From contig JAOTOL010001656.1 in the NCBI GenBank assembly GCA_034440575.1, positions 1,621,001 through 1,685,000 of the forward strand: DNA of 64,000 nucleotides, read 5' to 3'. Within the stretch, counting starts at the first letter, position 1; every line of letters starts with the position of its first letter. Under the pieces are notes generated by a model, which saw nothing but the letters and a program-made list of their open reading frames with translations, was not told the origin of the DNA and did no database searches. Made by a program: the position numbers and the translations under genes. Origin of the DNA: Imbricaverruca yamaguchii. Its lineage: Eukaryota; Arthropoda; Thecostraca; Neoverrucidae. Of the stretch, positions 1,899-63,622 are shown in pieces.

Positions 1899-1912
1899 AT
1901 GTATCCCTAGAA

Positions 1913-1966
1913 TGGGCGCTGTATGGCCGAAGCAGTCGATACGCCCCTAAGCCCAAATAGCCAACC
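1913..1966 (+). mobile_element. Mini-hairpin retroposon, copy A
   Basis: This 54-bp copy begins TGGGCGCTGTATGGCC and ends AAATAGCCAACC. It matches the other copies at 5,343, 7,768, 34,901 and 51,956. The outer stem is GGGCG with CGCCC and the inner stem is GGCCG/CAGTC, partly decayed. Flanks ATGTATCCCTAGAA (1899-1912) and ATGCATCCCAAGAA (1967-1980) agree at 12 of 14 positions and are read as an aged target-site duplication. The length, the fixed hairpin start and the AACC-type 3' end fit an unusually short retroposon. No pol III promoter is obvious. Confidence 0.75.
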
Positions 1967-1980
1967 ATGCATCCCAAGAA

Positions 1981-2665: not shown

Positions 2666-3119
2666 TCCGAGATCAACAGTCACATGGTCGACAAACATCA
2701 AAGGGATCGTCGAGGTCTGACCGCAGTCCGCCACCCAAATATACATTTTCCAAACACAGATGCGGTTTAGTATATAAATTATGCACGATACGTGGACCTA
2801 TTTGGAAGGTCGTTATCACGGTCGCTCTTCAAAACTTCAAAGTTGGGCTTGCCAGGAGAATGCGGTGACTTGGCGGTGGCTTGGTGCTTTGGGGCGCACC
2901 GACTACCGGGCCATTTTGCGTCCAATGGAATATAACTGTTGTGCTATAAAGCGAGCTATGTAATGTATCCTTCGGAAAGGCAGATGTTGCAAGCACGTGA
3001 ATGGCCAGGATAGGAGGGCTTCGACTGCTCTCGTTTGGTTCACGCAATACCAGATTCACGCGCGCGAATGATGTAGCACGATTATTATATTCGGCAGCGT
3101 CGAAAACACCCTCCATACA
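2666..3119. other. No supportable feature
   Basis: Unique sequence of mixed composition with no repeat or gene signal seen. Confidence 0.5.
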
Positions 3120-5335: not shown

Positions 5336-5342
5336 GCAGAAG

Positions 5343-5402
5343 TTGTTGATTATTTGGGCTTAGTGGTTTACGGGCGCATCGGCTGCGTCGGTCGTGCCCA
5401 TC
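5343..5402 (-). mobile_element. Mini-hairpin retroposon, copy B (decayed)
   Basis: The plus strand reads TTGTTGATTATTTGGGCTTA then GGGCGCATCGGCTGCGTCGG, which is the family in minus orientation with an inserted GGTTTAC. The outer stem is worn (CGTGCCC instead of GCGCCC). GCAGAAG occurs on both sides (5336-5342 and 5403-5409), a possible 7-bp target duplication, with similarity extending a few bases further. Confidence 0.6.
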
Positions 5403-7753: not shown

Positions 7754-7767
7754 TTAGAAGAACAAAA

Positions 7768-7817
7768 GGTTGGTTATTTGGGCTTAGGGGCGCATCGACC
7801 GCTTCGATCATACAGCG
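7768..7817 (-). mobile_element. Mini-hairpin retroposon, copy C, with perfect 14-bp target duplication
   Basis: A 50-bp element (GGTTGGTTATTTGGGCTTAG at its plus-strand left side, GATCATACAGCG at its right) is bounded exactly by TTAGAAGAACAAAA at 7754-7767 and 7818-7831. Nothing else lies between the direct repeats, so the 50 bases are the complete inserted unit. The inner stem GACCG/CGATC uses one G.U pair. The outer GCGCCC is truncated to GCG. The A-rich duplication fits target-primed insertion by a LINE machinery (inference). Confidence 0.85.
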
Positions 7818-7831
7818 TTAGAAGAACAAAA

Positions 7832-8169: not shown

Positions 8170-8735
8170 CATGACCTTCCACTGCACCGCTTTACACCCT
8201 CTAGAAGTGCAGCGATGTGGCGCGATATCCTATGCCCTGCCGTCCCAGTGGCGCCACACTCGAGTCTACGCCGGTGTACGGTCGAGTCTGCTGGCGGCCC
8301 CGACTGCGACCAGCAGACCGGCCTCCCTCGTGGCTGCCATGGCGTGACACTGTCGCTCCCGACTGAAGGCACCGGCGGCGCGCCGGCCATCGATCCACGG
8401 CGGCCAGCGCGCGCATTGGCAGCCATAGTGGCAGCCGCCGCCGCCGCCGCCACGCACAGCATCGACCCGGCCGCCGGTCCCCTGCCTTCTGCGTCCCCTC
8501 TGCGGCCGACACACGGCCGCGGAGGGCGAGCAGCGCTCATAGCCCGGGCTGGCCCCGCGGCACCAAGGTCAGTGGCCAGCTCCGATCGGTATCGGCACCA
8601 AGCCGGACTCGAGACGCGGCCCCCAGTAGGCGACACCCGCCGCGATGCAAAGAAACGGCCAGGCACCACGGTTGATCTGGAGGATGCAGTTCTAGCTACT
8701 AGGCGGCAGGGGCTCAGGTGCTACTGACGTCTGGG
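8170..8735. other. GC/CpG-rich island next to a minisatellite
   Basis: Strongly CpG-rich, with a short GCC run near 8,440. Open frames cross it in several frames on both strands, and composition explains this. It directly abuts the 41-bp minisatellite, a pairing seen repeatedly in this window. Confidence 0.5.
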
Positions 8736-8740
8736 GACTG

Positions 8741-9915
8741 CAGCTCAGGAGATGGCGGAGGTCAGACGCTGCCCGTGTCTGCAGCTCAGGAGATGGCAGA
8801 GGTCAGACGCTACCGATGTCCTGAGCTCAGGAGATGGAGGTCAGATGCTGCCCATGTCTGTAGCTCAGGAGATGGAGGTCAGATGCTGCCCATGTCTGTA
8901 GCTCAGGAGATGGAGGTCAGATGCTGCCCATGTCTGTAGCTCAGGAGTTGGCAGAGGTCAGATGCTGCCCATGTCCGGAGCTCAGGAGATGGCAGAGGTC
9001 AGACGGTGCCTATGTATGCAGCTCAGGAGACACCAGAGGTCAGACGCTACCTATGCCCGGAGTTCAGGAGATGGCAGAGGTCAGACGCTACCTATGTCCT
9101 GAGCTCAGGAGATGGCGGAGGTCAGACGCTACCTATGTCCTGAGCTCAGGAGATGGAGGTCAGATGCTGCCCATGTCTGTAGCTCAGGAGATGGCAGAGG
9201 TCAGATGCTGCCCATGTCTGTAGCTCAGGAGATGGCAGAGGTCAGACACTACCTATGTCCTGAGCTCAGGAGATGGAGGTCAGATGCTGCCCATGTCTGT
9301 AGCTCAGGAGATGGCAGAGGTCAGATGCTGCCCATGTCTGCAGCTCAGGAGATGGCAGAGGTCAGACGCTACCTATGTCCTGAGCTCAGGAGATGGAGGT
9401 CAGATGCTGCCCATGTCTGTAGCTCAGGAGATGGCAGAGGTCAGATGCTGCCCATGTCTGTAGCTCAGGAGATGGCAGAGGTCAGACGCTACCGATGCCC
9501 GGAGCTCAGGAGATGGCGGAGGTCAGATGCTGCCCGTGTCTGCAGCTCAGGAGATGGAGGTCAGATGCTGCCCATGTCCGGAGCTCAGGAGATGGCAAAG
9601 ATCAGACGCTACCGATGTCCTGAGCTCAGGAGATGGAGGTCAGATGCTGCCCATGTCCGGAGCTCTGGAGATGACAAAGGTCAGACGGTGCCTATGTATG
9701 CAGCTCAGGAGACACCAAAGGTCAGACGCTGCCGATGTCCAGAGCTCAGGAGATGGCGGAGGTCAGACGCTACCGATGTCCAGAGCTCTGGAGATGACAA
9801 AGGCCAGACGGTGCCTATGTATGCAGCTCAGGAGACACCAAAGGTCAGACGGTGCCTATGTATGCAGCTCAGGAGACACCAGAGGTCAGACGCTGCCGGT
9901 GGCCTCGTGTCCGCG
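8741..9915. repeat. 41-bp minisatellite (with 36-bp variants)
   Basis: About 28 units built on AGCTCAGGAGATGGCAGAGG and TCAGACGCTACCTATGTCCT. A recurring 5-base deletion (GGCAGAGG to GGAGG) makes 36-bp units. Variants alternate between CTGTAGCTC, CCTGAGCTC and CCGGAGCTC blocks in a patchy order, indicating block-wise duplication. The long open frames here are repeat translations and not a protein I can support. Confidence 0.95.
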
Positions 9916-10579
9916 ACTCAGTAGACGGTTGCTCACCAGACAGGGCTCCGCCAGATACACAGTACCTGCCAAGGCCCATCGCAGCCGGCAGCCGGCAGCC
10001 TGCCAGCCCCACGGTCGGGTCAGGAGAAACACAGACAGCGGCGCGTCTGGCTAATAAATCCCCGGCGTCGGCCGGTCCCGTGCCGTATTCCCGTCCACCT
10101 CGGGCAACAAGCACAGCTCACGCGTTGGTTCGTCCAATGCGTTGGGATTTCCAAAAGGAAATGGTCTTAGCACACGATTTCAGCATTTTATCAACCCGAC
10201 AGGCGACATTTTAACAGGCGACGTTTTATCAAGCCGATTGGGTGATATGGTGACCTGGTGGTTTATGACGCACGGGGACGCCAACTGCTGGAGCCATTAT
10301 ACACCGAACCCTGGCATGGTTGTGGAATTTACACGATGTCCCATGTTAAACCTAGCATACATGGAGAAAACTGCACACATTGAGCGGGCAATGGCCGGCT
10401 CAAGAATACATGAACGACACGGGAAGGGATCGTAGGGTTCCAGGACTCAGTCGTGTGTATTGCTCGCCGTGTTTAGCTTAAGAAAGGTGCATCCATTAAG
10501 TGAGCATGACTCATGTCAGGTAAGATGAGACTTCCCCATTTAGACATCCCCTAACAAGCTCGGCAGCGCAGGGAGATCT
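9916..10579. other. No supportable feature
   Basis: GC-rich for the first 150 bases after the minisatellite, then unique sequence with no recognisable gene. Confidence 0.5.
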
Positions 10580-12004: not shown

Positions 12005-12750
12005 ATATTGATGTATCAGTTGAGGGGGCGGGGGCTCATCTCTGGGTCGATCAAGCTAGGGATGATATCCCAAACTACAAGTTTCTCCCCGGATTTGGCC
12101 TATTTTATTTTACAATCTTTAAAAACATTAATTTCATAAACATCAGTTTCCTTTTTCCAGTTTTCCATGAACTTAGCTTATCCGGGGACAAATAGTCAGG
12201 AAATATTTAATCGAAAAACTACTACAGAATACGGAGAATCTACTTAGTGCCGAAACGGCTTCTTCCTTTTCGCTTCGCATTGTGCCTAATTTCATTATTG
12301 TTTTTACGATATCCGTATATGTTACTTTAAATTTCCGTCGATCAAAATGGATTAAAAACAGCACGAAACGAAACAACATGCAACCATCGTAGCAAACTCC
12401 GCATTGCTATCAGTGCTAAATGACCAGTGTGATTATCGACTTCAGAAAACCTGAAATGGGATTGCTTGTACTATTACAATTAATCAGGAGTCACCACCAA
12501 CACTAAATAATACTTAGAACATCGAGAATATCGTCACCACTCATATATTTTTGTCAATCTTACACCTACCTATACGGAACACGAGTATTGTGTCATACTA
12601 GACATTTATGGAGCATTCCTTGAATTTTCCATGGGTTTGGCTTTCAAAGTCGTGGTGGTGGTGGTGGTAGGGGTGGGGGGGGGGGTGAGCTGAAAGTTGG
12701 GGAGGGTGGGCAGCCGGAGCCCTCCCGACCGAATAGGATCCTACATCCCG

Positions 12751-12752
<2 letters not shown>
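12005..12752. mobile_element. hAT-type MITE, copy 1 (right end fused to microsatellite)
   Basis: The segment is collinear with the element at 38,910-39,659. Shared blocks include TTTTCCAGTTTTCCAT, AACTTAGCTT, CTTCGCTTCGCATTGTGCCT, AAATTTCCGTCGAT and GACATTTATG. The left terminus is diverged. The right terminus (GAATAGGATCCTACATCCCGAG) runs straight into the CAGA array. There is no transposase gene. The minus-strand open frame through this region comes mainly from the adjoining microsatellite. Confidence 0.65.
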
Positions 12753-13460
<708 letters not shown>

Positions 13461-13833
13461 GAGACAGAGACAGCCAGTGGTGCGTGCGCGGCGGTCGGCG
13501 ATCAATACAGGCCGGGGAGATGGCAGCGGGCACGCGTACTGTCTGCCCCACCCTCATGCATCCCAGCTGAACGGGCGGCGACCAGCTGACACCAGCTGCC
13601 ACCAGCTGGCAGCGGCCGGCAGACCAGCTCGCAACAGCCAACGACTCCACTTCGGACTGAAGCTCACACCTTGCACACAGATCACACGTACGCATGAATC
13701 AGATTTCGCAGAATCGCTGGCCGATCCAGAAAGCTATTTTCAACGCGGCTAATGGAGAACATCAGAAAATACCTCGCAACAAGGAACTTCCGATCTGATT
13801 GTCCTACAGAAAGGATCGTCTCAGAACATGCTC
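13461..13833. other. Short GC-rich stretch then unique sequence
   Basis: 13,480-13,640 is GC-rich with a small CAGCTG-containing repeat (ACCAGCTGACACCAGCTGCC). The rest shows nothing. Confidence 0.5.
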
Positions 13834-14975: not shown

Positions 14976-15390
14976 TATTTCAGTTAATACAGAAACCATG
15001 TCGGCGCTATTTTTCTGAAAGAATAGTGAAGATGAAGAACGTACGAATGTCCGAGAAGCGAGGGGCTGAGCCGCCAAGTTTCCTTCGAGTCTATTTCCAC
15101 GAACCGCCCATATAGATTAACTACCTCCCTTCCTGTGGTAGTTCCTGTGGTGCCACGGGCGCGGCAATAGGGACCTCGCTGAGGTAGCTCCCTGTTTCCC
15201 CGCCCCAAGTAGTGACGTACAGTAGGGTAGCCAGGGGTGACGCACATCACCTACCATGGCTCCAATTGCAGTCAGGGAGCGGTCACGCCAACGCCGGTTG
15301 GTGGTGTTAGTGGTAGGGGTCCGTCGACGGCTGCTCGCCGGTGTCGCGCACCTGGAACACACGCAGAGCAGGCGTGGAGGTGGTCTACAG
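14976..15390. other. No supportable feature
   Basis: Unique sequence leading into the 16-bp minisatellite. GC rises from about 15,250 onward. Confidence 0.45.
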
Positions 15391-16010
15391 CGGACAGCCG
15401 ACCGGGCGGACAGCCGACTGGGCGGACAGCCGACCGGGCGGACAGCCGTCTGTGCGGACAGTCGACCGGGCGGACAGCCGACCCGGCGGACAGCCGACCG
15501 GGCGGACAGCCGACCGGGCGGACAGCCGACCGGGCGGACAGCCGACCGGGCGGACAGCCGTCTGTGCGGACAGCCGTCTGTGCGGACAGCCGACCGGGCG
15601 GACAGCCGACCGGGCGGACAGCCGACCGGGCGGACAGCCGACCCGGCGGACAGCCGACCGGGCGGACAGCCGACCGGGCGGACAGCCGACCGGGCGGACA
15701 GCCGTCTGTGCGGACAGCCGACCGGGCGGACAGCCGACCCGGCGGACAGCCGACCGGGCGGACAGCCGTCCGGGCGGACAGCCGTCCGGGCGGACAGCCG
15801 TCTGGGCGGACAGCCGTCTGGGCGGACAGCCGACCGGGCGGACAGCCGACCGGACGGCGACAGCCGCGACAGCCTCCGGGGGACAGCCGACCGGGCGGAC
15901 AGCCGACCGGGCGGACAGCCGACCGGGCGGACAGCCGACCGGGCGGACAGCCGTCCGGGCGGACAGCCGACCGGGCGGACAGCCGTCTGGGCGGGCAGCC
16001 GTCTGGGCGG
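15391..16010. repeat. 16-bp minisatellite
   Basis: About 39 units of GACAGCCGACCGGGCG with variants GTCTGTGCG, GTCTGGGCG and CCCGGCG, plus one interruption at about 15,850-15,880. A 16-base unit without stops is open in all three phases on both strands, which explains the six overlapping 270-370 codon frames here. The variant types recur in the same local order in the first 360 bases, suggesting duplication of multi-unit blocks. Confidence 0.97.
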
Positions 16011-26432: not shown

Positions 26433-26544
26433 TTGCGCACGACGTCACCTAGGCGGTATCGGTCTACGGCGTCACCATTCAAAGGAGCTTCAGCTAGGCA
26501 TCCTCCAGGGACTTTTAAGTGCCCTCCCCCCAGAAATGGTTGTT

Positions 26545-26700
26545 CGTTGGTTGGTTGTTGGTTTTACGACACATCGACCGAGCCATGTAGCGTCGCCGAT
26601 CTCTCACGCTGATTGGTCCCGGGCGAAGAGTAGTGACAGGTGAGACTCGAACCCACAGCCTTTCGAGCACCTCAGCCCTAGACTACTCATCCCCCCAGAA
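26545..26700 (-). mobile_element. tRNA SINE family 2 with a mini-hairpin-like 3' tail
   Basis: On the minus strand the unit begins with a tRNA-like head (TGTGGGTTCGAGTCTCACCT at 26,638-26,657). It ends with CGACGCTACATGGCTCGGTC then GATGTGTCGTAAAACCAACAACCAACC. The terminal part parallels the mini-hairpin retroposon in layout: an outer stem of CGACGC type, an inner stem GGCTCGGTC, and an AACC tail. This suggests the mini element is, or shares, the 3' module of a SINE. Confidence 0.5.
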
Positions 26701-26997
26701 ATGGTGCCCCCAGGCGAGTGCACTCCTCATGAAAACCCCTGGATTCGCCACTGGTGTGTATCGAACGCAAGAGCTTCGTGCCCAGACAAGAGATGACCAA
26801 TCTCGTATTCACGTAAGCGTAAAGTACGCTACTGCTTTATCGATCGCGGCGAAGTTTCCACGAAACACGCATTTGTGCCCGGATTGGAAAAAAAAGTACG
26901 CTCACTGGATTGATGAAAGGATACATTCTGACATATTCGTGGTAAGCCGATGTAGGTTCCAGTTCCAGGGAGGCTGCGGCGTGTCATGTTCTGGTTG

Positions 26998-27051
26998 GTT
27001 AGTATAGCATGGGGCGCATCGACTGCGCCCGTTACAACGCGCCCATAACCT
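26998..27051 (-). mobile_element. Mini-hairpin retroposon, divergent copy
   Basis: The plus strand reads GGTTGGTTAGTATAGCATGG then GGCGCATCGACTGCGCCCGT and ACGCGCCCATAACC. It keeps the tail and outer GGGCGC/GCGCCC stem while the inner stem is altered. No target duplication was recognised. Confidence 0.55.
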
Positions 27052-30369: not shown

Positions 30370-30614
30370 AGAGCCCACCTGCCGCCCAGACTGCCCTGTT
30401 CGCACCCCACAGCGTCAGCCCCGGCCAGCCCAGGGAGCGGCCGAGCGGCACACACTGCCGCCACCAGTGAGAGGTCACCGGCAGGATGTCAGCAGTCCAC
30501 CTGCCGCCCAGACTGCTGTGTTCGCACCCCACAGCGTCAGCCCCGGCCAGCCGAGGGAGCGGCCGAGCGGCACACATTGCCACCACCAGTGAGAGGTCAC
30601 CGGCAGGATGTCAG
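30370..30614. repeat. 122-bp tandem repeat, left half (two units)
   Basis: Two GC-rich units (CCCACCTGCCGCCCAGACTG ... GAGAGGTCACCGGCAGGATG) at 122-base spacing. The array resumes at 31,345 after a LINE insertion, with two more units. 30,207-30,369 is GC-rich sequence without repeat structure. Confidence 0.95.
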
Positions 30615-31344
30615 TTTAGGTGTTATTCTAAGCACAAAACTGGGGGCATCAGAACAGACCAAGGAAGCCATGAAGAAGCCACTGAGAATGCTCGGGGCAA
30701 TAAATAGGAATGTATCATACATAAGTGAGGAAGTGATCAGGAAGCTTTACTGTGCATACGTCAGGCCACATTTGGAATACTGCATCCAAGCTTGGTCTCC
30801 TAGCTATGAAAAAGATTGTTGGCTTTTAGAGAGAGAGTACAAAAGAGGGCTACAAAAATGGTTAATGGCATAAGCAACCTGGCACATGAGGAAAGATTGA
30901 AGAAATTGAATATGTTTTCACTTAGATATAGAAGGCTGAGAGGAGATCTCATCGAGGTCTTTAAATTTGTCCATGGTCTGGAGAGGGGATACCTTGGGGA
31001 GATACCTTGGGGAAATGTTTGAATTTAACAGAAATGATGCAATTAGAGGTCATAAATTCAAAATTAAAGTTAACCACAGCAGAACAAGGTTAAGGCAAAC
31101 TTTCTTCACCAACAGGGTAGTAGAACACTGGAACCAACTGCCAGAAAACATCGTCAGTAGCAGCACATTGAACATCTTCAAAAACAGCATAGACAATCAT
31201 TATAAGAACAGAGGGCTTGCTTTTCAGTATTACAGGGAGGGCTCATTGACAGATTTGGTGGGCAATTGGTTCAGTGTACAGAGTGCAACCAAGAAAGGGC
31301 CCTTGTGGCTCATAGTTGCACTAATCTTTTATGTCTTTGTCTTT
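30615..31344 (+). mobile_element. 5'-truncated CR1/L2-type LINE, copy 1, inserted in the 122-bp repeat
   Basis: The 730-bp insert encodes the region just after the reverse transcriptase catalytic core and the C-terminal domain: KLYCAYVRPHLEYCIQAWSP, ERLKKLNMFSLRYRRLRGDL, IEVFKFVHGLE, FFTNRVVEHWNQLPENIVSS. It then has a short 3' UTR (AAAGGGCCCTTGTGGCTCAT) ending in ATGTCTTT repeats. Two frame breaks split the reading frame, one near 30,830 and one near 31,000. The second is caused by a local tandem duplication of ATACCTTGGGGA. ATGTCAG at 30,608-30,614 and 31,345-31,351 flanks it as a 7-bp target duplication. It is closely similar to the 3' third of the element at 61,745-63,622 and is a dead copy. 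Confidence 0.9.
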
Positions 31345-34079: not shown

Positions 34080-34284
34080 AGGTACTGTCGAAGACAGGAG
34101 CCCAGCGCACCAGTCGTGATTGGCCAGGCCGGAGGCCAGAAGCCGGCCGCGTGCAGGCTGAGGAACGCCGCACCGCGCATTCCAACCGAGAGGAGGCGCC
34201 GCCAGCGTCACGGCACGTGGTGTCGGCATTAGCCAGCTGCAGGCACCGGTCAACCGGTACAGCGGCGTGGGTAGCACTGGCCCC
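34080..34284. other. GC-rich island abutting a minisatellite
   Basis: Moderately CpG-rich, leading directly into the 33-bp array. Confidence 0.4.
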
Positions 34285-35055
34285 AGCTGGCCGCGCCTGA
34301 ACAATGTTCCCTGTCGCAGCTGGCCGCGCCTGAACAGTGTTCCCTGTCGCAGCTGGCCGCGCCTCAACAGTGTTCCCTGTCGCAGCTGGCCGCGCCTGAA
34401 CAGTGTTCCCTGTCGCAGCTGGCCGCGCCTGAACAGTGTTCCCTGTCGCAGCTGGCCGCGCCTGAACAGTGTTCCCTGTCGCAGCTGGCCGCGCCTGAAC
34501 AGTGTTCCCGCAGCTGGCCGCGCCTGAACAGTGTTCCTGACGCAGCTGGCCGCGCCTGAACAGTGTTAGTGTTCCCTGTCGCAGCTGGCCGCGCCTGAAC
34601 AGTGTTCCCTGTCGCAGCTGGCCGCGCCTGAACAGTGTTCCCTGTCGCAGCTGGCCGCGCCTGAACAGTGTTCCCTGTCGCAGCTGGCCGCGCCTGAACA
34701 GTGTTCCCTGTCGCAGCTGGCCGCGCCTGAACAGTGTTCCCTGTCGCAGCTGGCCGCGCCTGAACAGTGTTCCCTGTCGCAGCTGGCCGCGCCTGAACAG
34801 TGTTCCCTGTCGCAGCTGGCCGCGCCTGAACAGTGTTCCCTGTCGCAGCTGGCCGCGCCTGAACAGTGTTCCCCGCTACTGCTGCCCGCGCCTGAACAGT
34901 TGGTTGGTTATTTGGGCTTAGGGGCGCATCGACTGCTTCAGTCATACAGCGCCCATTCGCCTGAACAGTGTTCCCTGCCACTGCTGCCCGCGCCTGAACA
35001 GTGTTTCCTGCCACTGCTGGCCGCGCCTGAACAGTGTTTCCTGCCACTGCTGCCC
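34285..35055. repeat. 33-bp minisatellite, about 21 units, interrupted once
   Basis: Units of CGCAGCTGGCCGCGCCTGAA CAGTGTTCCCTGT are nearly identical to 34,860. They then diverge (CACTGCTGCCCGCGCCTGAA). The array is broken at 34,901-34,957 by a mini-hairpin retroposon. A short deletion (34,508) and an insertion (34,566, GTTAGT) mark single-unit events. The 11-residue periodic translation is open because 33 is divisible by three. Confidence 0.97.
34901..34957 (-). mobile_element. Mini-hairpin retroposon, copy D, inside the 33-bp array
   Basis: 57 bp flanked by CGCCTGAACAGT on both sides (34,889-34,900 and 34,958-34,969). Stems are perfect: outer GGGCGC (34,922-34,927) with GCGCCC (34,949-34,954), and inner GACTG (34,931-34,935) with CAGTC (34,939-34,943) around a CTT loop. 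The flanking 12-mer also belongs to the host unit, but the unit is only restored if one copy is removed, so it is a true target duplication. Confidence 0.85.
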
Positions 35056-35120
35056 ACCTCGCCACTGTCCGCATCGTCTGCTACCGGCTATCGGTGCCCA
35101 GGCCGGGACAGCTCTGTCAG

Positions 35121-35302
35121 CCACTACCCGCACCGGAACAGAAACTGCGCACCACTACCCGCACCGGAACCGAAACTGCGCACCACTACCCGCACCGGAA
35201 CCGAAACTGCGCACCACTACCCGCACCGGAACCGAAACTGCGCACCACTACCCACACCGGAACAGAAACTGCACACCACTACCTGCACCGGAACAGAAAA
35301 TG
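35121..35302. repeat. 31-bp minisatellite, about 6 units
   Basis: CCACTACCCGCACCGGAACC then GAAACTGCGCA repeats at 31 bases. Outer units carry AACAG and CACACC variants. Confidence 0.95.
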
Positions 35303-35904
35303 CCTACTGACTACTGCCGAAAGTAGAATAGCTTTCCCACTCGTTAAAAATGTGTCCTTGCACTCTTCAATGTCACCCACGTCAACCACGTTCATCGAAC
35401 CCCCCTCAGCGTAATGATGACTGCGCCCTGTGGAGGAGGCACAATCTCTCAGAGACTTTCAATAAGTACCAGTAAAAGCGCTCATTGTACTAGTAAATAG
35501 CAGGAGGACATAATATGTACACGCAAAGTTGGGCCCACTGAGCGAGGGCAAAAAGAGCAGCAGGTAGGGCTGCAGCGTAGGGCTGCAGCATAGGGCTGCA
35601 GACCAGGAGCGGGCACTATACCGATGTCGGCTATGGGCACCATACAGATGTCGCGGTGGCGACCTCCATGTCAATAAGTGGCATTGGCGACGCGGAGAGC
35701 CACATGTGATGTTCTAGGCAGGCGATGCGACAAAAGGAGGTATTCAAACTTGAAAATCAAGGGAATATTATGTCGCAGAAACAATATAAGAAAGAAAATC
35801 AGACAAGCTTACAGTGAGAGCTATACATGAACATGAACATGAAAATAATCATCATTTAATCAAGGCAATACAAAATACCACGGTCAAAAAGTTGTCTAAA
35901 TAGA
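35303..35904. other. No supportable feature
   Basis: Unique sequence with a small GTAGGGCTGCAGC repeat (three copies, 35,563-35,601). Confidence 0.5.
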
Positions 35905-36350: not shown

Positions 36351-36487
36351 ATATGAAGAAGCTTGCAAAAAAAAGTTGGTAAGGTAAAATGTAATAAACA
36401 ATTTTCACACTTAAATAAAATTAAGCTTGGAAGTACCAAAAGTTGAGAAAATCCAAACATTGCCGAAGAAAGTAAATTATCGAGGTA

Positions 36488-36522
36488 TAGGGGTGCATCG
36501 ACTTAAGTGATCATGCAGCGTC
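36488..36522 (-). mobile_element. Mini-hairpin retroposon, decayed fragment
   Basis: TAGGGGTGCATCGACTTAAG then TGATCATGCAGCGTCC retains the order and spacing of the family with a worn inner stem and no tail. Confidence 0.45.
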
Positions 36523-37284
36523 CTTGGTGAAATAAGTTGGTAAAGCAAAAAAAGAGTTGATACAACACAAAAGGTTCGTGAAAAAGGTAAAACCGAAAAT
36601 TGGTTTGGAAAAAAATCAGTAAAATTTTGAAAATGGTAACTTAAAAAGTTCACCAAATAAAACTGTACAATAAAAAGTTGATACGATATAAAACTTGGCA
36701 ACATAAGTGACTAAAATTAAAAAGATGGGTAAATTGTGAGCAAGGCAGGAGTATAGGACGTTGGTTCCAAGTGGAGGGATTAGTTCCATTTTTTTCATCA
36801 ATGCGGCCAGAAGAGTCGTTTTATGGAAGCGACTGAATTGACACCGCATTGCTTAAAAAATTGACGATGAATCAGGGATCATGAAATTTTGGTTGCATGG
36901 GTGCTGGATGGACATGGATATGGATGGATATGGATATGGATATGGAGAGGGAGAGGGAGATGATGGGAGTGAGAGGATGGGAGTGAGAGGATGGTTCGTT
37001 CTCAATTGTGCCATCCCAACAATCGGTGCGTACAATTCGGAACTGGAGGAATACGTTCTCTTGGCGTGTGCGTTTTCTGCAGTGCACAAGGCGACGCTGT
37101 TCCACATGGCTAACGGCTAAGTACAGGAGCCGATGACCTCCGGCCTGTCACGTTACTACGCCTGCGTGCAGGCTTAGTTTGAGTTGGGAGAGCATGCCTT
37201 GAAATGCTGGAGTAAACACTTTCACAGATTTCACAATCGTAATGGTAATCGTGCTGTCGGAATGGGCTCGGCTCGGATGGGGCA

Positions 37285-37318: not shown

Positions 37319-37755
37319 TCTGCCTCGCATATAAAACAGCAGATCCGCTCAGATTCGCTCCAGCCCGGAAATAATTTGCCACATAACATCACTACCACAG
37401 GCAGGATTGGCTCTCGCTCGGGGTGGGGGTCCAAAGTGGCGTCTAGGCTTCTGCCTTTACGCCATTAGGCAATTTGTGCAAGATGAAACGACCTTGTTTC
37501 CCAAATTAACGAACAACGAATTAAACACTTTCCTCGAATACGGAATACAAGTAAAATAATGCTGTGGGCAAGGAGCATGTCGGTATATATTTCAAAGTCT
37601 ACAGAAACTCAGCATGTAAACCTACAATGGTGGAATAATTTTTTTCTCTCCATTGGTTTCATTATCTTACATCTTGATATTCATGCTTTTTTGTTTCAAA
37701 TACTAATGCATACAATACACCTGGCACGAACACTTCCCTCGTTCCACGGCAGAGT
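37316..37755. other. No supportable feature
   Basis: Unique AT-rich sequence. Confidence 0.5.
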
Positions 37756-37793
37756 TTAGGGGCGCATCGACCGCATCGGTCATGCAGCGCCCA
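37756..37793 (-). mobile_element. Mini-hairpin retroposon, copy without tail
   Basis: TTTAGGGGCGCATCGACCGC then ATCGGTCATGCAGCGCCC has a perfect outer stem (GGGCGC/GCGCCC) and an inner stem GACCG/CGGTC that differs from copy D at a paired position, with the pairing kept. No target duplication was seen. Confidence 0.6.
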
Positions 37794-42080: not shown

Positions 42081-42859
42081 CGCTGTTTAGATGAACAGCC
42101 TCAGCCTGCTGGACCGTGGCCGGTGTGTGGCAGGGCGAGGATCTGGAGGCACCTGTGCACTAGCTAATCGAGCAGTTGGGCAATATCTCCTCTGAGTCAT
42201 AATAAAAAAGAAGTTAATTCGGCCACGTAGCAATTTGTATTCATTTGTTCTTTGCCGCTGGCACCTTCCAATACTGGATTATAACACCGTCATTGTGCAG
42301 GGACATTCATCAGCAGTTACGCAGCCAGGCTTTTCCTAAAAGAAAATGTGAAAATGTGACACGAAAAATGTGAAGAAACGGGAGGATTGTTGACGAGCGA
42401 AGCGCGCGGACAATTTATGGTTTTGCGTGGAGAAAATTTCAAATGTATTGTTTGTTCTATTGCATTTTTGGTTCCTAAGGGCGGAGAAGGCCCTCCCTTA
42501 GCTGCCCCTCCGATCAGAAGCCTTCAAACCATTGCGAAATGTGACATTGGGGTCGTTGGCCTCCAATGAGGTAGTAAATTCGACCATCTCGAAAAAGGCA
42601 TTAGGTGACAACCAGGCTACTTCTTTTTACTGTGGCCGTTTTTTTCCTTGCGAATTTTCACATATTGGTCATACATATGCTCAGTTTCTCGAGCAAGGAG
42701 TCGTAAGTGCGCTACGTTTCAACTGCATGCTAATTTATTCAATGTAACAGCTGAAATGTGTGGTCAATCCAACTATTGACAATTTTAGTTTGTGATTATG
42801 TCGTACTTCCGTACGGAGGGGAGATCGGATCTAGTTGATACACAAGATGGTTGATACAA
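42081..42859. other. No supportable feature
   Basis: AT-rich unique sequence. GGGAGATCGGATCTAGTTGA (42,819-42,838) echoes GGGAGACCGAGTCTAGTTGA inside the nested MITE at about 43,851. Confidence 0.5.
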
Positions 42860-43713
42860 CAGCTTTTTCCCAAAAAGTATGAAGCCGGTTTCCATGGCTA
42901 CCACAGACGTTGCTACCGACACCCTCTTCTTGCGATAAAAACAAGCGCAAGCCCTTTCAACGCACAGATGCAGAATGGTAACGATGCGGCACATTTTTGG
43001 AGCGAAGGTCAAAGTTTAATGTCGATGTTCAGCACTTAATTTATAAGTTGTCGCCCACCTACTAACTTTTTTGGTTTCCGTTACCATTGCCATGTTCTCT
43101 CAGAGTTGCAACGGTGCAATGCTTTTATCGCTTGTCACCACGCTGCACTCTCAATGTTGCACAACATGTTGCAGCCTGCAACAGAAAACCTGCGGGGTAA
43201 ATTGATACAGCCTACATCAAGTCAATCAGCCTGTTTCAACATCAGCCTTTATCATCGTTTTGTGAACTGTTAATTCAATAAAATAACTGCATAATTGCCT
43301 ATTTTGCTACGGTATTTGCTAAAACTAGTTGCTAAATTCAGTAATTCCATTGACATTTCTCATCCGACGTAAAAAACTGAACGAAGAAAAACTGTGTAGC
43401 TTCGGACTGAACGTTTGCACCTTCCATAAATGGCATAAACCATGAGCTATGGCCAGCCAAGACTGAAACAAGTATTATTACTGTAAGCGTTGAATATGGA
43501 CCTTTCAAATGGTGTAAGCTAATGCCACCTATGGATGATATGTTTTATTTACCTTGCATTTTATTAACTTACCCAATCGTCAGTGGCAACTTACCCCGAT
43601 AGCAGGTTAGGCTAATGAATCTGTAGTTGCGCGACATTTTACTCTGGTGGGAAGCCCAGAGGACACTACGAAAATAAAGCATGATCGGGGGTGATACGAG
43701 AATGTCTAGGCTT

Positions 43714-43935
43714 GGCGTTGGTGTGGCTATCTCCTCCATACCCTTCTAAAGTAGTTAGCTATTTTGAGTTTCGCCAACATTTGTATCAATTCAGCTCGGT
43801 CTCCCATACTGTTTCGATATCTCTCTTCCAGCTCTTGACGAAGGATGCAAGGGAGACCGAGTCTAGTTGATATAATTTTGGCAGAACTCAAAATAACTCA
43901 TCACTTTGGAATGGTAGCGAGGGGATAACTACGCC
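43714..43935. mobile_element. 222-bp palindromic MITE nested in the left arm
   Basis: The unit begins GGCGTTGGTGTGGCTATC and ends GGGATAACTACGCC. The halves are imperfect inverses (AGCTATTTTGAGTTTCGCC against GGCAGAACTCAAAATAACT, and TCGGTCTCCC against GGGAGACCGA). The right arm lacks this segment: there AAGCCTAAACC follows GCTACGTC directly. The palindrome is therefore a later insertion into one arm only. Confidence 0.7.
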
Positions 43936-44542
43936 TACGTCACAGGGCCTATTTTAACATGTTAACTGGGGTGGAAGCTTCCACCCTAGTCGCCCAGATT
44001 TCCACCCCGGTGAAGGCCCACGCTGAAGGATCTTTCTGAGAACCTGGCTGCCTCAGAAGTCATTGGAACCATCAGAAACCTACCTTTTTTTTGTACTTGA
44101 TCCGTACAACCAATGAGCCATCCAACGCTCACTGTGATATTTTTTTCACTTTGGTGTATTAAAGCACAGTACCTACACCATTGTGTATGTACTTACACTC
44201 GCAACGCCGTAGATACCGGTAAGTTTTGCACGGTACCACGCCGAGTCTCGCCGAACATTGAATTTTATTACAAAATCCTTCGCGAGGAGGTGCGTATTAA
44301 AAACAAGCGCATGCCTCTCAAATTTATCCGTGCGGCGTGCCGCTGTAATGCTGCGAATGAATTATCTGCACGTCCTATGCTCATTCATTTGTGTTGCCGG
44401 TGCCGCCGGAGGGGTGTCGGTGGATGCTAGTTGCTACGTTTGCTGTGGAATGAAATACAGCAGCGAAAGTAGTGTGTGGAAGTTTCCATTGAAATTATTT
44501 CACTTACAAGTTACATAAAGACTGCGTATACAAGTACTAACA

Positions 44543-44658
44543 ATGGAAGGATCGAGGCCCTTTAAAAAGAAACGTAAGACGTCAGGGGCGCAGGTCCAAA
44601 AGCAATGGGAGTCGGCAGCCTGGTCTTGTTCTACTCCATCAATCCTTCAATTTTTAAA
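44543..44658 (+). CDS. Exon 1 of a gene fragment inside the long-TIR element (ZMYM/hAT-like N terminus)
   Basis: Starts at an ATG in ACAATGGAAGG. It encodes MEGSRPFKKKRKTSGAQ, a basic, nuclear-signal-like segment with a KKRKTSGAQ core, and later TPSILQFL. It ends at AA followed by the donor GTAAGTACC. A KRK-x-SGA motif close to the start followed by a short FF/FL-ending segment is common at the N termini of ZMYM-type and hAT-derived transposase-like proteins (family knowledge; the match here is short and unverified). The exon phase is 2. No zinc finger or catalytic domain follows within the element. Confidence 0.4.
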
Positions 44659-44710
44659 GTAAGTACCAGTCGACGATGCCCTGGGTCTAGCAAATAAGTT
44701 CACAGTCCAG

Positions 44711-44893
44711 TTCTGCGGGGGAGGAGATCGACGTCGTGGAAGCACGTGATGGAACGAAAAACTACCTGGAGCTGATGGAGACCGCTCCCGTGCCAGGTGG
44801 CAAAGAGGAGGCTCTTTTGTCGTCTACCGCGGGAGAAGCCGGGACCAGCCAGACCGACGGGGAAGACAAAGGTCATGGGAACGTAAAAAACAA
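44711..44893 (+). CDS. Exon 2 of the same fragment
   Basis: Preceded by the acceptor-like CACAGTCCAG. Joining AA from exon 1 to the first base here makes an Asn codon and keeps the frame: SAGEEIDVVEARDGTKNY, then an acidic Ser/Thr/Gly-rich linker (GEAGTSQTDGEDKGHG) and NVKNK. It ends at AA followed by GTACGT, another donor-like site. The agreement of phase across a 52-base intron is the main support. Downstream exons are missing before the right arm begins, so the gene is truncated or continues only in autonomous relatives. Confidence 0.4.
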
Positions 44894-51904: not shown

Positions 51905-54300
51905 TTCGACAACATGCATATATGTTGTTAGAAAAGATAGATTTGGTATGCACAATGGGCGCTAAATGACCAACCATGGTCGATGCGCCCTAAAACCACA
52001 ATCACACACACACACATTGGTATGCACAACTGAAGCATTTTTGGAGGTAATGAAAGCATTTTTGGAGATAACTTGCAAGAATTTTGCATTGACTGGTTAC
52101 AGCATGCATGCTTATGAAAGGAAAGCAAGGGTAAGAGGTGGGATGCTCTTGTATGTGAGGAAAGTAATGAAGTGTCATTCCGTGGAAGGTAGGTTTCATA
52201 GAGTAGGAGTAGAATCTTTGTGGTTAGATGCCATTCTGAAAAACGAAACAAGATTTAGGATTGTGGCATTCTATAGGCCACCAGATCAGAATGAAAACAC
52301 TGACTGGTTGTTGCAGGAAGAGATAAATAGGAGAGTGCATGGGGGAACTGTATTGTTGGGGGACTTCAACATAGCAGGGCTGAGATACAAAACTAGATGC
52401 ATAAGCAAGTCAAGAAAAAGTCTCACAGCTCGTTTTGAGGAAAACTTCCTCTGTCAAATAACACATGAACCTACAAGGGGAAAGGAAATGTTAGATCTGG
52501 TACTTACAAATGGAGAAAATTGTGTACAGAATGTGAACATATAAAAGACCTTCGGCAATCGTGATCACGACATTATACGCTTTTCCTCATACGCAGGAAG
52601 CGTAGGAGTCAATACAAGATTGATTCCAAATTTCACTAAAGGGAATTACAGTGAGTTCAAGAATTTCCTAAACGAAATTCATCGGGAAGAGTTGTCGATG
52701 GGCTTAGATGCCTATGAAATGTTGAGAATGTTAAATGACCCACTGTTCCAAGGTCAGGACAAGCTCATTACAAATATATAAATTATATTAAAGAATGTTA
52801 AGCACCTTTCATGACTGAAAAAAAGACAGTAAAACATTGACTGCAGTCGAAGAAGCAGGCGTTCAAGAAAGAAAAAGACGCTAACTCTGAAGAAAGTCGA
52901 GAATCGCATAGAATAGCTAGAAATATGGTTAGATGTGTTAGGGCATCTAAACTACTTGCTGAAACCAAATTAGCTTGAGAATGTTCAGCAGGCAATGCTA
53001 AGAGGTTCTTTAACTTCTACAAATTTATGTGTCAAGAGTGTCATGTAGGCCCACTAGAGGTAAATGGTAAAATAGTGGTTGATGATCGTGATATTTGAAT
53101 TCCTAAGGAAACAATTTTCGGCACTCTTTACCAAGGAGAAATCTGGTATATTGGAAACAACTGAAAGTTATGCCATGGTATGTGATAGGTTGGAGGATTT
53201 TACAATAACTACAGCAGCTGCAGAAACACAGATGCAGAATGTAAAACCTAATAAAGCTTCTGGGGGTCAGATAATATCTTAATATATATGCCACGATATT
53301 AGTAGAGTGCGATAAAGCATTGGCAGTTCCCCTAGGCATCATTTTCAGGCGTTCCATGGAGTATTCTGAGATACCGGAAGATTGGCGAAATGCAAATGTA
53401 GTACCGATTTTGAAAAAGGGAAGTATTGTGTGTGTAGGAAACTACAGGCCGATCAGCTAGAACTCAATAGTTTACAAGGTACTAGAAAAAGGTTAAGCAT
53501 AATTGCCACATGGCTCTGTTCTGGGGCCACTTCTCTTTATTATCTGTGTAAATAACATTCCGGTATGGGTGAAGAATAGGATGTTCAAATTTCCGGCTGG
53601 CATCAAATTGGTAGGAGTGGCTAACAGTAGTGATTAATCTCGCAATATGCAACAAGACTTGGGGGACCTGCAAAAGTGGACTACCCAATGGCAGGTACCC
53701 TTCAACGATTAAAAATGTTAGGTTATACATCCAGGGTCTGGAAGTGAGACTTTCAGATACAAATGATAAAGATATTTAGGTGTGTTGGTTTCAAAGGATC
53801 TTGAAGCAGAAAAACAATATCTCAGCAAGGAACAGGGCAATTAGAATGCTGAGAATCGTTAATAGGGGTGTGAGGTATAAAAGCAAGGAAGTGATGCAAA
53901 TACTGTACTTGGCCTATGTGCGACTCAACGTAGAATATTCTGTATAAGCATGGAGCCCCTACCTAGAAAAAGACATATATATGCTAGAAAGATTGCAGGG
54001 TAAAGCCACTAGACTCATCAGTGGACTAGGTAACTTAGAATATGAGAAAGACTGATGGCATATATATGTACTCAAGCATAGGAGATAAAGGGGTGACATG
54101 GTTGAAATGCATAACATCATTAAATGACTAGATCAGATCAATGTAAATGGCGCACTTCTATTTATACTATCACATAAGGGTCATCAATTGAAGTTTGACA
54201 AACTAAGGTATAAGACAGTTAAGCGACAGTAGCTCTGCCTGCTGCCTGCTGATGTAAGGAGTCCCTCATTAAATGCACCTAAATAGGGTGGACAACCTTT
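51905..54300 (+). mobile_element. Decayed CR1/L2-type LINE, copy 2 (endonuclease to C-terminus)
   Basis: The endonuclease part shows DLVCTTE (split by a mini-hairpin insertion), RGGMLLYVRK, ESLWLDAIL, RIVAFYRPPDQ, VLLGDFN, EPTRGKEMLDLVLTNG at 51,930-52,540, then the HD-type region ending in a stop after NVNI. Reverse transcriptase remnants follow in several frames: EIPEDWRNANVVPILKKGS (53,370), NYRPIS, HGSVLGPLLFIICVNNI (53,508) and an abnormal catalytic box region (PAGIKLVGV where FADDT is expected). The C-terminal domain is at 53,840-54,050 (NRAIRMLRIVNRGVRYKSKE, VRLNVEYSV, AWSPYLEKDIYMLERLQGKA). Many frameshifts and stops make it inactive. It is clearly older than the copies at 30.6 and 61.7 kb. 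Confidence 0.85.
51956..52016 (+). mobile_element. Mini-hairpin retroposon, copy E, inside the LINE endonuclease frame
   Basis: 61 bp starting TGGGCGCTAAATGACCAACC and ending in a (CA)n tail, flanked exactly by TTGGTATGCACAA (51,943-51,955 and 52,017-52,029). The outer stem is GGGCGC/GCGCCC. The inner stem is GACCA/TGGTC, a third base-pair combination at the covarying positions. Removing the insert and one flank restores the conserved endonuclease motif DLVCTTE. This fixes the boundaries independently. Its CA tail replaces the AACC tail of other copies. Confidence 0.9.
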
Positions 54301-56322: not shown

Positions 56323-58349
56323 GTGTTGTTAATACCATGAAGCACAATAATACCTTTAAGAAGCCGTCGAGCCTTTTCTTTGGCATATTATCCAACAATT
56401 TGCTACATCATTTCCCTTACCACGTGAAAAGAACGCATTTGAACCAGAAATAAGTGGTCACGTCATGCTAGTCATTTTAAGAAGTGTGTTCTAACAAATT
56501 TGTCTTGAAATGCCCTATCCGAATTAATATACAAGTATTTGAAATATTTGGCCGCATTTCTCTCTTCCATTATGAGGAGCTTGATAGTCCGTACAAATTA
56601 TGATGGTTGATACCAGCGTTGTGTGAACACCAGGTCCATCAAAACTATTGCTGTTGGTTCGCATTGGTTCTTTTGGTTTGTCTTTTGTTAGCAATACCAA
56701 ATGTACATGAGCCCTCAGCCCATCATGGGTTAGGTTATGTATGTAAGTACTTTTTCAAGTTCATCACAGGTGTTCTCCTGCAAAACGGCTTCAGCATTAG
56801 GCTGGCTAATCGAAATCTACCTTCAAGCCCGACTGCAAATCATGGAAGACAGTTTCTGAAACTATCCCAGCATGGGTTTGGTGCCCCACCCAGATGTATT
56901 GATTTTTTCCACAATAAAATAGAAATTCGAGTAATTTTTAACTCTTCTTCTTAGTTAATTAGTTATTTGAGTTTATGGGCGCTTCGACCAACTCTCTTGT
57001 TCTTGACTTGCACATTCTGTGCAGGTAGTTCCTAATCACATCACTGTTGTAAAAAAATATGCAGCCAAGTTACATGTGCATTCACTGGCGGCGTGTTGTG
57101 AAAACTCTATTGACATTTACCGTGCTTTGAACTGAATTTCACCCTTCTGTGGATTTACACCGCTAGTTTTCCATTGGGAACTTGGGCAGAAAAAACACGG
57201 AAATATGGATGAGAATTCAGCGATGCAGTGCCCAATTACTTGTGCAAGATGGAGTGTAATGAAGCATCAGTAAGCAGTGTGCAAATATATTGCATTCATG
57301 CCACTCTGGCTTGTTTTCATTTTTGTATCCTATTTCTTTGGTAGCGCGCCAGATTTGTCATACTTTTATCTCAAACGCAGTAGTTCATCGTGTCTGCCGA
57401 TAGGTGGCAACTCTTTCGCCTTGAATGGTTAATAATTTGTGGCAGTCTTACAATACAGTGCATGTGCATATAAAAGTATTATTTGTTATATAATTAACAT
57501 AATACATGTGTTGCCAAAGCAAAGGCCCACCTATGCCCACCCTTCATGTATAAATGAAGGTAATTTGTGTTTTTGGAAAGGTGCCAGTAAAATTTTATAT
57601 GATTTGTGTTTGAGGAAATGAAGAATGTAAATTCCCCAACTAATGGCTTTAATGTATGGCCTCCAAGGTAAATCAGCACTTCAAGACCACAGATATTAGC
57701 TTACAGCACGAAAAAAAACGTGATATCCGGAAATTGCACTAAACAAATTACAAGTGGTGACTGGCTGCGCTGGGCACGAGCTACATCCATAGCAAAATGA
57801 GCGGGTCTGAATAGAGCTCGCACCTCATGGGTGGTCGGATATGGGTATAGGTCAGACGGGGCTTAGAATATTGGACCCGTTTCGAACTCTGTTGTGCACA
57901 TTGAATGGAAATAGTTGAAAACGCTCCGCAAACCAGTAGTTTTCCGACGAAGCCACCATTCCCTCACTGATCAGCACCTCGAGACCACCTTCATAACGAG
58001 GCCAATGCACGCACACTGGTCTTTGTTTCTTTGCCGCTAATCATTTCGCCGAGAGCGCATAGAAAATCCAACGCAATTAATAACTCAAGCTGCCATGTTT
58101 ATCCCTCGCACTGGTCCAATGTTGGCTACTTGCACTTTGCCAGTTCGCGTGCCACGCTCAATTTGGTCTACGAGCAAAGTAGGTCGCAGGCACGCACAAC
58201 AAGCCACCAAAAAGCGATATCAAGTGGGCCTGTGAATGATAACCAGAGATTTCAGAGTAGCAAACAATGAACCCGGGACGATAAGGTCTGCACGGTTATA
58301 TTACACGTCACTAACACAAATGGAAACTCACATGTGCCACAGTGCCACA
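56323..58349. other. No gene; one mini-hairpin fragment
   Basis: Two kilobases of unique AT-rich sequence. At 56,953-56,990, TTAGTTATTTGAGTTTATGG then GCGCTTCGACCAA looks like a truncated mini-hairpin copy. Confidence 0.45.
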
Positions 58350-61744: not shown

Positions 61745-63622
61745 GATTTGGCTAGGAACTGTAATTGGGACAGCAAAAGGTTCTTCAGTTTCTACAAACT
61801 GAGTAAAGATTCTAGCACAATTGGTCCACTGGAAGTAAACGGGACTATATCGGGTGAGGATGGTTAGAGGGTTGAGGAGCTGGGCAAGCAGTTTAAATCA
61901 GTGTTTACATTGGAAGATATGACTAATTTGCCAACCGTACACCACAGTTCAGTGACATGTGATCGGATAAACGATGTTGATTTCATTGAGTGATGTTGTT
62001 TTCAATCATATCAGGAAAATAAAGCCAAACAAGCCAGCAGGACCTGATGAGATTTACCCTAGGGTATTGTGGGAAGCTGAAAAGGAACTGACATTTCCAA
62101 TTAGTATAATATTTTGTAGATCAGTTTCCCAAAATGAAATTCCAACAGATTGTGAAAGGATAAATGTAGTTCCTATCCTCAAGAAAGGAGAAAGAGTGAA
62201 AGTTAAAAACTATAGGCTAGTAAGCCTCACATTCATAGTCTGCAAGGTACTCGAATCAATTGTCAAAGATAGAATAGTTAGTTATCTAGAAGGAAACAGA
62301 TTGATTCAAGATACTCTACATGGGTTTATAAAAGAGCGATCGTGTCTCTCAAATCCCTTCGACTTATCGAACCTCGCTACAGAACAATTTGATCAAGGCA
62401 ATCAGGTTGATGTAGCATCCCTTGACGGCCTTCGACAAGGTACCCCATAAACGGTTAATGATGCAGCTTCAGGTCCATGGGATTACAGGTACCATCCTAA
62501 AATGGATAGAGTTGTGGCTTTCAGATAGACAGCAGAGAGTGATTCTAAATGGTATAAAGTCATCGTGGCAAAATGTTCTTGGTGAAGTGGAGCAAAATAC
62601 CCCAGTACTGACCCTCAGGGGTCAGTACTGGGGCCGCCACTGTTCATTATATTTGTACATGACATTGAAAGTGACCTCAGCAGTAAGGTTTTGAAATCTG
62701 CGGATGATTTGAAGGTCTTTATGGCAATAGCAGGCCACAATGAGCATCTTGCTGCAGAAAGAGGAACTTGTAAAGTGGTCCGAAGAATGACAAATAGCAT
62801 TTAATTTTGATAAGTTCAAAATCATGCATGTAGGTAGGCAGCATATGAAGGCTCCATACTTGATGGGCGGCCAAGTATTATCGGTGACTCAGCAAGAGAA
62901 AGACCTAGGTGTTATTCCGAACACAATATTTGGGGCATCAGAGCAGACCAAGGAAGCCGGAACGAAGGCACTGAGAATGCTTGAGGAAATAAATAGGAAT
63001 GTATCATACAGAAGAGAGGAGGTCATCAAAAAGCTTTACTGTGCATATGTCACGCTACATTTGGAATACTGCGTCGAAGCTTGGCCTCCTAGTTATGAAA
63101 ATGATTGTTGGCTTTTAGAGAAAGTACAAACGCGGATTACAAAAATGGTTAATGGTAGAAGAAACCTGGCATATGAAGAAAGATTGAAGAAATTGAATAT
63201 GTTTTCACTTAGATATAGAAGGCTGAGAGGAGATCTCATTGAGGTCTTTAAATTTGTACATGGTCTGGAGAAGGGGTATCTCAGGGAAACGTTTAAATTG
63301 AAGGGAACTGATGCAATTAGAGGTCATCAATTCAAAAATAAAGTTAACCACAGCAGGATAAGGTTACGACAGTCTTTTTTCACCAACAGGGTAATAGAAC
63401 ACTGGGACCAGCTGTCAGAAACCATTGTCAGTAGTAGCACATCGAACATCTTTAAAAACAGCATAAACAATCATTTTAAGAATAGAGAGCTTAATTTTCA
63501 GAATACCAGGGAGGGCTGATCGACGAACTTGGTGGGCAACTGGTTGAGTGACGAGAGTGCAACCAAAAAGGGCCCTTGTGGCTCATAGTTGCACTGATCT
63601 TGTATGTCTTTATGTCTTTTTA
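61745..63622 (+). mobile_element. CR1/L2-type LINE, copy 3 (reverse transcriptase and C-terminus), 5'-truncated
   Basis: Order along the element: the linker FFSFYKLSK and GPLEVNG (61,780-61,850). RT fingers follow: KPNKPAGPDEIYPRVL, VVPILKKGERVKVKNYRLVS, LTFIVCKVLESIVKDRIVSY and ERSCLSN (62,010-62,360). Then come TAFDKVPHKRLM (62,422-62,457), WLSDRQQRVILNG, the SVLGPPLFII motif after a frame break, and SADDLKVF in place of the canonical FADD box (62,693). The C-terminal domain has KLYCAYVTLHLEYCVEAWPP, LKKLNMFSLRYRRLRGDLIE and FFTNRVIEHWDQLSETIVSS, ending at 63,519. The 3' UTR with AAAGGGCCCTTGTGGCTCAT ends in TATGTCTTTATGTC. Frame breaks occur near 61,863, 62,000, 62,420, 62,600 and 62,800, so it is inactive. 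It resembles copy 1 closely. Confidence 0.9.
62600..62633. repeat. 15-bp inverted duplication breaking the RT frame
   Basis: CCCCAGTACTGACCC (62,600-62,614) is the exact inverse of 62,619-62,633. The right arm is the normal codon run for GSVLGP. The left arm contains about 13 extra bases that are the inverse copy of it. This shifts the frame just before the conserved motif. Confidence 0.85.

Follow-up and report, generated by a model that had tools for sequence, protein, structure and literature searches.

Short headless LINE-tail units in the genome of Imbricaverruca yamaguchii

The genome of Imbricaverruca yamaguchii (Arthropoda, Thecostraca) contains units of about 50 bp that consist of the 3′-terminal hairpin and repeat tail of a LINE with EN, RT and RNase H (loci L050-L055). 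This tail hairpin has been inserted alone, with a fixed 5′ end and with target-site duplications of the LINE type. Judging from the sequences, its template was probably a discrete short RNA, most likely a trimmed one. The units are best called headless LINE-tail retroposons, which work like the SINE of a stringent LINE.

Results

Copies in the window

Our analysis started from an earlier note on a stretch of 64 kb, in the following called the window, in which about nine copies on both strands had been listed; every listed place proved to be a copy or the remnant of one. Profile searches of the window add matches at 2,923 (-), 6,103 (-, E 0.02), 26,594 (-, a tRNA SINE) and 27,572 (+). The final profile yields 52 matches at E<0.05 in the window, a 200-kb sample and seven fetched loci together, and none in reversed-sequence decoys. 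The features of the window are as follows:

1899..1912, second copy 1967..1980: target-site duplication, 12/14
1913..1966 (+): headless unit, type T, complete, flanked by the 12/14 duplication
2879..2923 (-), bounds approximate: further degenerate unit, absent from the earlier note, found by profile search
5344..5401 (-), bounds approximate: rearranged unit with an inserted 8-mer and a 7-bp flanking repeat
7754..7767, second copy 7818..7831: target-site duplication, 14/14 (TTAGAAGAACAAAA), read directly
7768..7817 (-): headless unit, type T, lacking the 5′ bases TGGG, flanked by the 14/14 duplication
26541..26705 (-): tRNA-derived SINE with A-box-like (26668-26685) and B-box-like (26642-26653) motifs, both by eye, hairpin (26566-26596) and AACC tail
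26993..27045 (-): degenerate unit
34901..34957 (-): headless unit, type T, complete, within a 33-bp tandem array; flanking repeat not independent evidence
36477..36524 (-): degenerate unit without duplication
37752..37793 (-): headless unit, complete hairpin, decayed tail, without clear duplication
51943..51955, second copy 52017..52029: target-site duplication, 13/13 (TTGGTATGCACAA)
51956..52016 (+): headless unit of another subfamily with (CA)n tail, flanked by the 13/13 duplication
56957..56994 (-), bounds approximate: unit broken within the hairpin
61974..63600 (+): decayed CR1-like LINE with a different 3′ end, not the partner

Two of the three duplications that had been described as clean, 14/14 at 7,754 and 13/13 at 51,943, are real, whereas the third, 12/12 at 34,889, is weak evidence, because this copy sits in a 33-bp tandem array whose repeat unit includes CGCCTGAACAGT. 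The 12/14 duplication of a fourth copy at 1,899 stands, and the fifth, at 5,336, indeed has a flanking repeat of 7 bp. That all copies begin with TGGGCGC was inexact: the copy at 7,768 is without TGGG, those at 36,488 and 5,343 are changed, and the one at 56,953 is broken within the hairpin.

The window has many tandem arrays, whose periods run from roughly 8 to 41 bp (8717-9946, 12671-13480, 15278-15969, 34185-35334, 46359-47860 and 50255-50779). Positions 42847-46047 hold long imperfect inverted repeats, with arms of 177 and 126 nt that are 76% and 75% complementary at a spacing of about 2.6-2.8 kb; they are perhaps a decayed DNA transposon.

Unit types and abundance

Read in one orientation, type T is (A)TGGGCGC TGTA TGACCG AAG CAGTCG AT GCGCCC CTAAGCCCAAATAACCAACC with a tail of AACC repeats; its architecture comprises an outer stem of 6 bp, an asymmetric internal loop and an inner stem of 3-6 bp, followed by the repeat tail. 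A second type, T′, is TGGGCGCTAAATGACCTTGTAGTCGGCGCGCCCTTAAGCCCAAATAATCAA with TCAA repeats. In a scan of the genome (767 Mb, 1430 contigs), the 54-nt type T unit was matched 1365 times with at most three mismatches and 33 nt of type T′ 1304 times with at most two; the reversed patterns gave no match in either case. The 200-kb sample consists of twenty 10-kb stretches, placed at round coordinates of contigs that had already given unit matches. It holds 25 hairpin matches at E<0.005 (about one per 8 kb), which include four tRNA SINEs, one LINE copy and broken copies; a rough extrapolation comes to about 96,000 hairpins of all kinds per genome. Among 87 fetched type T copies, 14 share the flank ACCAGTCTTACGACTGCCCTACTGC (13 of these are L030, L042, L044, L048, L049, L078-L080, L083, L088-L090 and L094), and hence a larger amplified repeat carries the unit along.

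Target-site duplications and the fixed 5′ end

The type T sample of 87 copies is composed of 80 of the first 100 places listed (0-1 mismatch, mostly on short contigs) and L002-L008; 26 copies were collapsed for near-identical flanks, which leaves 61 unique loci. For type T′, 60 copies were fetched, namely the first 20 places listed, two of them LINE-extended, and 40 further listed places; five were collapsed, and one of the 55 distinct copies is LINE-extended, so that 54 were scored. Eight known LINE copies were skipped among these picks, which makes LINE copies 10/68 of the first listed; the fraction used below is 98/1304.

A duplication was accepted when a direct repeat ending no more than 8 bases from the 5′ end of the unit scored 9 or more, the score being the repeat length less 3 for each mismatch. 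This threshold is passed by 53 of the 61 unique type T loci and by 41 of the 54 T′ loci, far above the swapped-flank controls (4/3660 and 3/2862, respectively), whereas 8/61 and 13/54 have no duplication at threshold 9. The earlier note's picture of a very short unit with target duplications and a fixed 5′ end is supported; the flanking repeats, for which it had proposed a comparison with shuffled sequence, are far more frequent than in swapped flanks. Duplication lengths of both types range from 9 to 22, mostly 12-15 with a mode of 14 and a few of 17, 18 and 22. In the less selected set from the window and the 200-kb sample, the threshold is reached by 11/29 complete hairpins versus 3/812; many copies in this set are old, and five tRNA SINEs and a LINE copy, which start elsewhere, are counted with them.

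Between duplication and TGGG, type T loci show no extra base (31), A (12), T (3), C (2), AA (2) or another sequence (three loci); at T′ loci, the extras are none (15), A (15), AA (2), AAA, AAAAA and TAAA (one each) and six others. A lone G was never found in either type. The single As of T′ could be templated, because A is the LINE base just upstream; the LINE sequence GTTA is no template for AA, AAA or AAAAA. The same 5′ end with intact duplications is found in other subfamilies (L011, L024:8668 and the window at 51,956). There are also copies that end inside the hairpin and nevertheless have duplications (L015:3973, L013:5086 and L025:3253); drop-off of the enzyme therefore occurs as well. 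A partial extra piece of the 5′ half of the hairpin lies upstream of the unit in L045 and L145 (direct) and in L163 (inverted), which suggests template jumping or snap-back.

The partner LINE

In the earlier note, mobilization had been ascribed to the resident LINE. This part has to be abandoned, because the CR1-like copies of the window (62.0-63.6 kb and 30.6-31.3 kb) lack the hairpin and their tail, (TTTATGTC)n, is unrelated; the window's own LINE was rejected as partner for its different 3′ end. By eye, on the basis of the C-terminal sequence, the CR1-like family is present in the window at 61974-63600(+), 30601-31300(+) and 53726-54136(+), and also in L025, L019 and L011; the better-preserved copies end in (TTTATGTC)n, and the piece at 53,726 is a distant relative.

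The partner was first met at L019:8953 as a copy longer than the rest. Its 173-nt 3′ end, used as query, gave 1460 first-look candidates, some of them perhaps bare units; the 40 best, which were scored, align with it over 169 nt or more at 95-100%. Five newly fetched loci share upstream sequence to differing depths, as in normal 5′ truncation. The 3′ end of this LINE reads ...GGAACAACTAACTGTTA + TGGGCGCTAAATGACC... + (TCAA)n; hairpin and tail of type T′ are identical to it in L051-L055, whereas the type T tail is related but not identical. The 5′ boundary of the unit likewise falls together with this LINE end. The element has two ORFs, the upstream one of 536 aa without Pfam match, and its domains are PF14529 (7.3e-24), PF03372 (2.5e-16), PF00078 (2.1e-29) and PF00075 (3e-9). 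With EN, RT, RNase H and two ORFs, it belongs to the RNase H-bearing (I-group) LINEs. The highest-ranked named relatives of its protein, from the barnacle Amphibalanus amphitrite, show 54-55% identity and make a barnacle-like crustacean the probable host; better matches reach up to 61%. A tblastn search of the sample with the C-terminal part of the partner and five relatives as queries returned an old relative (L028:459-1295) that leaves the locus before its 3′ end, weak pieces at L027 and in the window's LINE, and no additional hairpin-bearing LINE.

A GC-rich inverted repeat (GGGCGCCTGG...CCAGGCGCCC) precedes the first ORF of the partner LINE at L136:340-400(+); an Rfam search of it gave no family above the gathering score. 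At L019:8820-9010(+), a tRNA SINE is interrupted by a LINE 3′ end, which is flanked by a duplication of about 13 bp (TGTCACAATCGAA), so that the order of both insertions is known.

The tRNA SINE family possesses a tRNA-like head with A- and B-box-like motifs (by eye), a body, and then the same kind of hairpin and AACC tail; its copy in the window has a 15/15 duplication (26691-26705 / 26526-26540). The genome therefore holds a LINE, a tRNA SINE and a headless unit on one kind of tail.

Units and LINE copies compared by length

LINE-specific 33-mers (at most two mismatches; reversed-pattern counts 0) were counted at increasing distance from the tail. The complete hairpin is found 1304 times, the hairpin edge with 29 nt of LINE 98 times, and the segment 120 to 88 nt upstream 64 times, i.e. 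a thirteenfold drop at one point and a gentle decay over the next ~90 nt. Two caveats apply: related LINEs with an upstream region too diverged for the 29-nt pattern could account for part of the 1304 hairpins, and a LINE copy that stops less than 29 nt from the hairpin does not enter the 98. Against these caveats, 41/54 inspected T′ loci have their duplication directly at the edge of the hairpin. The units are not ordinary 5′-truncated LINE copies, as their 5′ ends are not scattered.

None of the 87 fetched type T copies has the LINE directly upstream (two 16-nt internal chance matches, neither reaching the unit) or the tRNA SINE (three short matches, none reaching the unit). The 61 unique loci have no common upstream sequence except for one 37-bp pair, which does not reach the unit either. 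If type T were LINE-extended at the T′ rate of 98/1304, the probability of 0/61 would be 0.0085. The earlier note had named extension of the copies into a longer conserved element as a finding that would count against it; the fetched type T copies do not extend in this way, bar the collapsed copies with common flanks.

Structure and searches for promoter and RNA family

In the outer stem, 90.6% of the cells are paired (32 sequences), and three of the six pairs have changes in both partners, for the most part in the tRNA-SINE subfamily, from which the both-sided changes at pairs 2-35 (8 sequences) and 4-33 (7) mainly come. The inner stem is 73% paired; its last two pairs are unpaired in 20/32 and 19/32 sequences. 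Five pairs are changed on both sides versus a shuffle mean of 4.6 (257/500 as high), which is not above the shuffles. The covariation score is 0.244 versus 0.185 in shuffles (0/500), but a slide of -2 also gives 0.185, and the changes cluster in one subfamily; RNAalifold retains six pairs only. The stem changes are compensatory in part, but few look independent, and the covariation that the earlier note had seen in the inner stem is confirmed only partly.

The description of the unit as structured applies to the best-preserved copies: folding energy beats shuffles in four well-preserved units (z -3.4, -5.2, -2.8 and -3.3), whereas the copy of the earlier note (7768-7831) and that at 1911-1969 have no advantage over shuffles (z -0.5 each). 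Folding of the LINE hairpin is modest (z -2.05); neither a 137-nt LINE end (z 0.05) nor a tRNA-SINE piece (z -0.5) exceeds shuffles. In the tRNA SINE at L013:4416-4490(+), AUUGGC and GCCAAU flank the hairpin and are able to pair. In T and T′ (L052:1620-1676(+)), the 5′ UGGGC could pair with GCCCA of the tail in place of the outer stem, a possible alternative fold.

With respect to the promoter, the earlier reading is unchanged: the 54 nt are LINE hairpin and tail only, and a pol III-type head (A and B box, by eye) is absent from them. ARAGORN predicts no tRNA in the window, though it also misses the tRNA SINE at 26.6 kb. Rfam returned no known RNA family above the gathering score. For self-cleaving ribozymes (HDV-like, twister and others), Rfam was searched up to E=5 with one unit, giving only a snoRNA fragment in the flank, and up to E=3 with one LINE 3′ end, giving none; HDV-like pairing was attempted by eye without success. 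The stem-loop with asymmetric internal loop followed by (AACC)n or (TCAA)n is a tail of the stringent type, for which an asymmetric internal loop in the stem-loop is described in PMC5135761.

Discussion

A probable short template RNA and the alternatives

We infer a discrete, promoterless template RNA that is about 55-65 nt long and has its 5′ end one base beyond the recognition hairpin, because the same 5′ end recurs across T, T′ and other subfamilies, the A-rich extras are partly untemplated, the sample contains no type T LINE, and the enzyme would have no structural reason to stop past a stem already melted. According to this model, the enzyme of the partner LINE would work in trans: it would bind the hairpin, prime on the AACC or TCAA tail at the nicked target and copy the short RNA as far as its true 5′ end; an untemplated A-rich stretch would sometimes be added, and the target site would then be duplicated. 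The unit would need neither promoter nor body, because it is the recognition site of the LINE alone. The short RNA would most likely come from longer hairpin-bearing transcripts that are trimmed or processed back, perhaps through protection by the bound enzyme, or else from a dedicated small gene; trimming is favored because T′ units equal the LINE tail. For R2-based insertion, it has been suggested that the template RNA is degraded starting at the 5′ end (PMC11331408). A bolder version is conceivable, although we would not bet on it: any hairpin-carrying transcript might be trimmed to an enzyme-protected remnant of ~55 nt and reinserted, and the bare hairpin would then multiply via the transcription of other genes. 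If so, the genome would have recorded, in the fixed 5′ end, the footprint of the enzyme on the RNA.

One alternative is a hot spot of 5′ truncation, where the enzyme starts on the full LINE RNA and regularly drops off just past the hairpin. The core of T′ is identical to the LINE 3′ end, stops within the hairpin exist, and the partner LINE shows ordinary variable truncation (L050-L055). We nevertheless regard a hot spot as unlikely: an enzyme moving 3′ to 5′ would have melted the stem by then, so that the hairpin gives it no reason to stop; type T is common too (1365 matches), yet 0/87 fetched copies have LINE upstream; and the junction extras are A-rich and partly untemplated. Alternatively, the units could be an independent SINE with one or more small-RNA master genes whose promoter is either external or internal and very short; T and T′ would then be two master lineages that track the LINE tail. 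The two near-uniform subfamilies and the lack of a LINE form of type T in the sample would fit, but neither a known promoter nor small-RNA homology was found, and T′ units exactly equal the current LINE tail, which is explained more simply by derivation from the LINE; this model appears improbable to us.

Short length, high copy number and direct-repeat flanks are also properties of miniature DNA transposons and other cut-and-paste elements. Their involvement is very improbable, since the two ends, a hairpin and a repeat tail, are not mutual inverted repeats as in MITEs, duplication length varies from 9 to 22 (mode 14), the 3′ repeat tail is variable, and the LINE and the tRNA SINE carry the same tail. 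Chance or an assembly artefact has hardly any credibility left: the duplication at 34,889 does lie within a tandem array and 26/87 fetched type T copies share flanks with another fetched copy, but reversed patterns count 0 and swapped-flank controls pass in 4/3660 and 3/2862 cases.

Relation to known retroposons

The usual explanation of a SINE is a pol III promoter combined with a tail that a LINE recognizes. Our units have the LINE-derived 3′ tail, and their duplications, most of 12-15, agree with the 8-16 nt given for SINEs in PMC8825457; they are not filed as canonical SINE because the pol III-type head is missing. The closest likeness is to UnaL2/UnaSINE1 of the eel, SINEs with LINE-derived tails, where LINE and SINE share a 3′ stem-loop with a short tandem-repeat tail and duplications are present (PMC3747384, PMC5135761). 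Mobilization in trans is presumably alike in both systems. The difference is that here hairpin and tail are the whole element, with no tRNA, 5S or 7SL head, no body and no recognizable pol III promoter. The ordinary form, a tRNA SINE ending in this tail, is present in the host genome as well. Ordinary 5′-truncated LINE copies agree with the units in 3′ end, tail and duplications, as seen in the partner LINE, but the 5′ end of the units is fixed instead of scattered, with a more than tenfold step at one place.

RIME, NARTc and SIDER of trypanosomatids are short non-autonomous derivatives of RNase H-group LINEs with duplications near 12 bp, which retain the LINE 5′ end with promoter and ribozyme. 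Our units, in contrast, keep the LINE 3′ end only, and no ribozyme family matches the one unit and the one LINE end searched. Among the titles and abstract openings listed in searches of the open PubMed Central text, no headless, promoterless unit of this kind was found.

Implications

The many clean duplications make the units suitable for the study of target-primed integration, and the family makes the origin of the 5′ end of the template RNA and the size of the enzyme footprint on the tail directly testable. Units as short as these may easily be missed by repeat annotation. A large tail-only family of ~50 bp would reveal how small a sequence suffices for a LINE in trans, and the findings suggest that a retroposon can spread without a promoter or any body.
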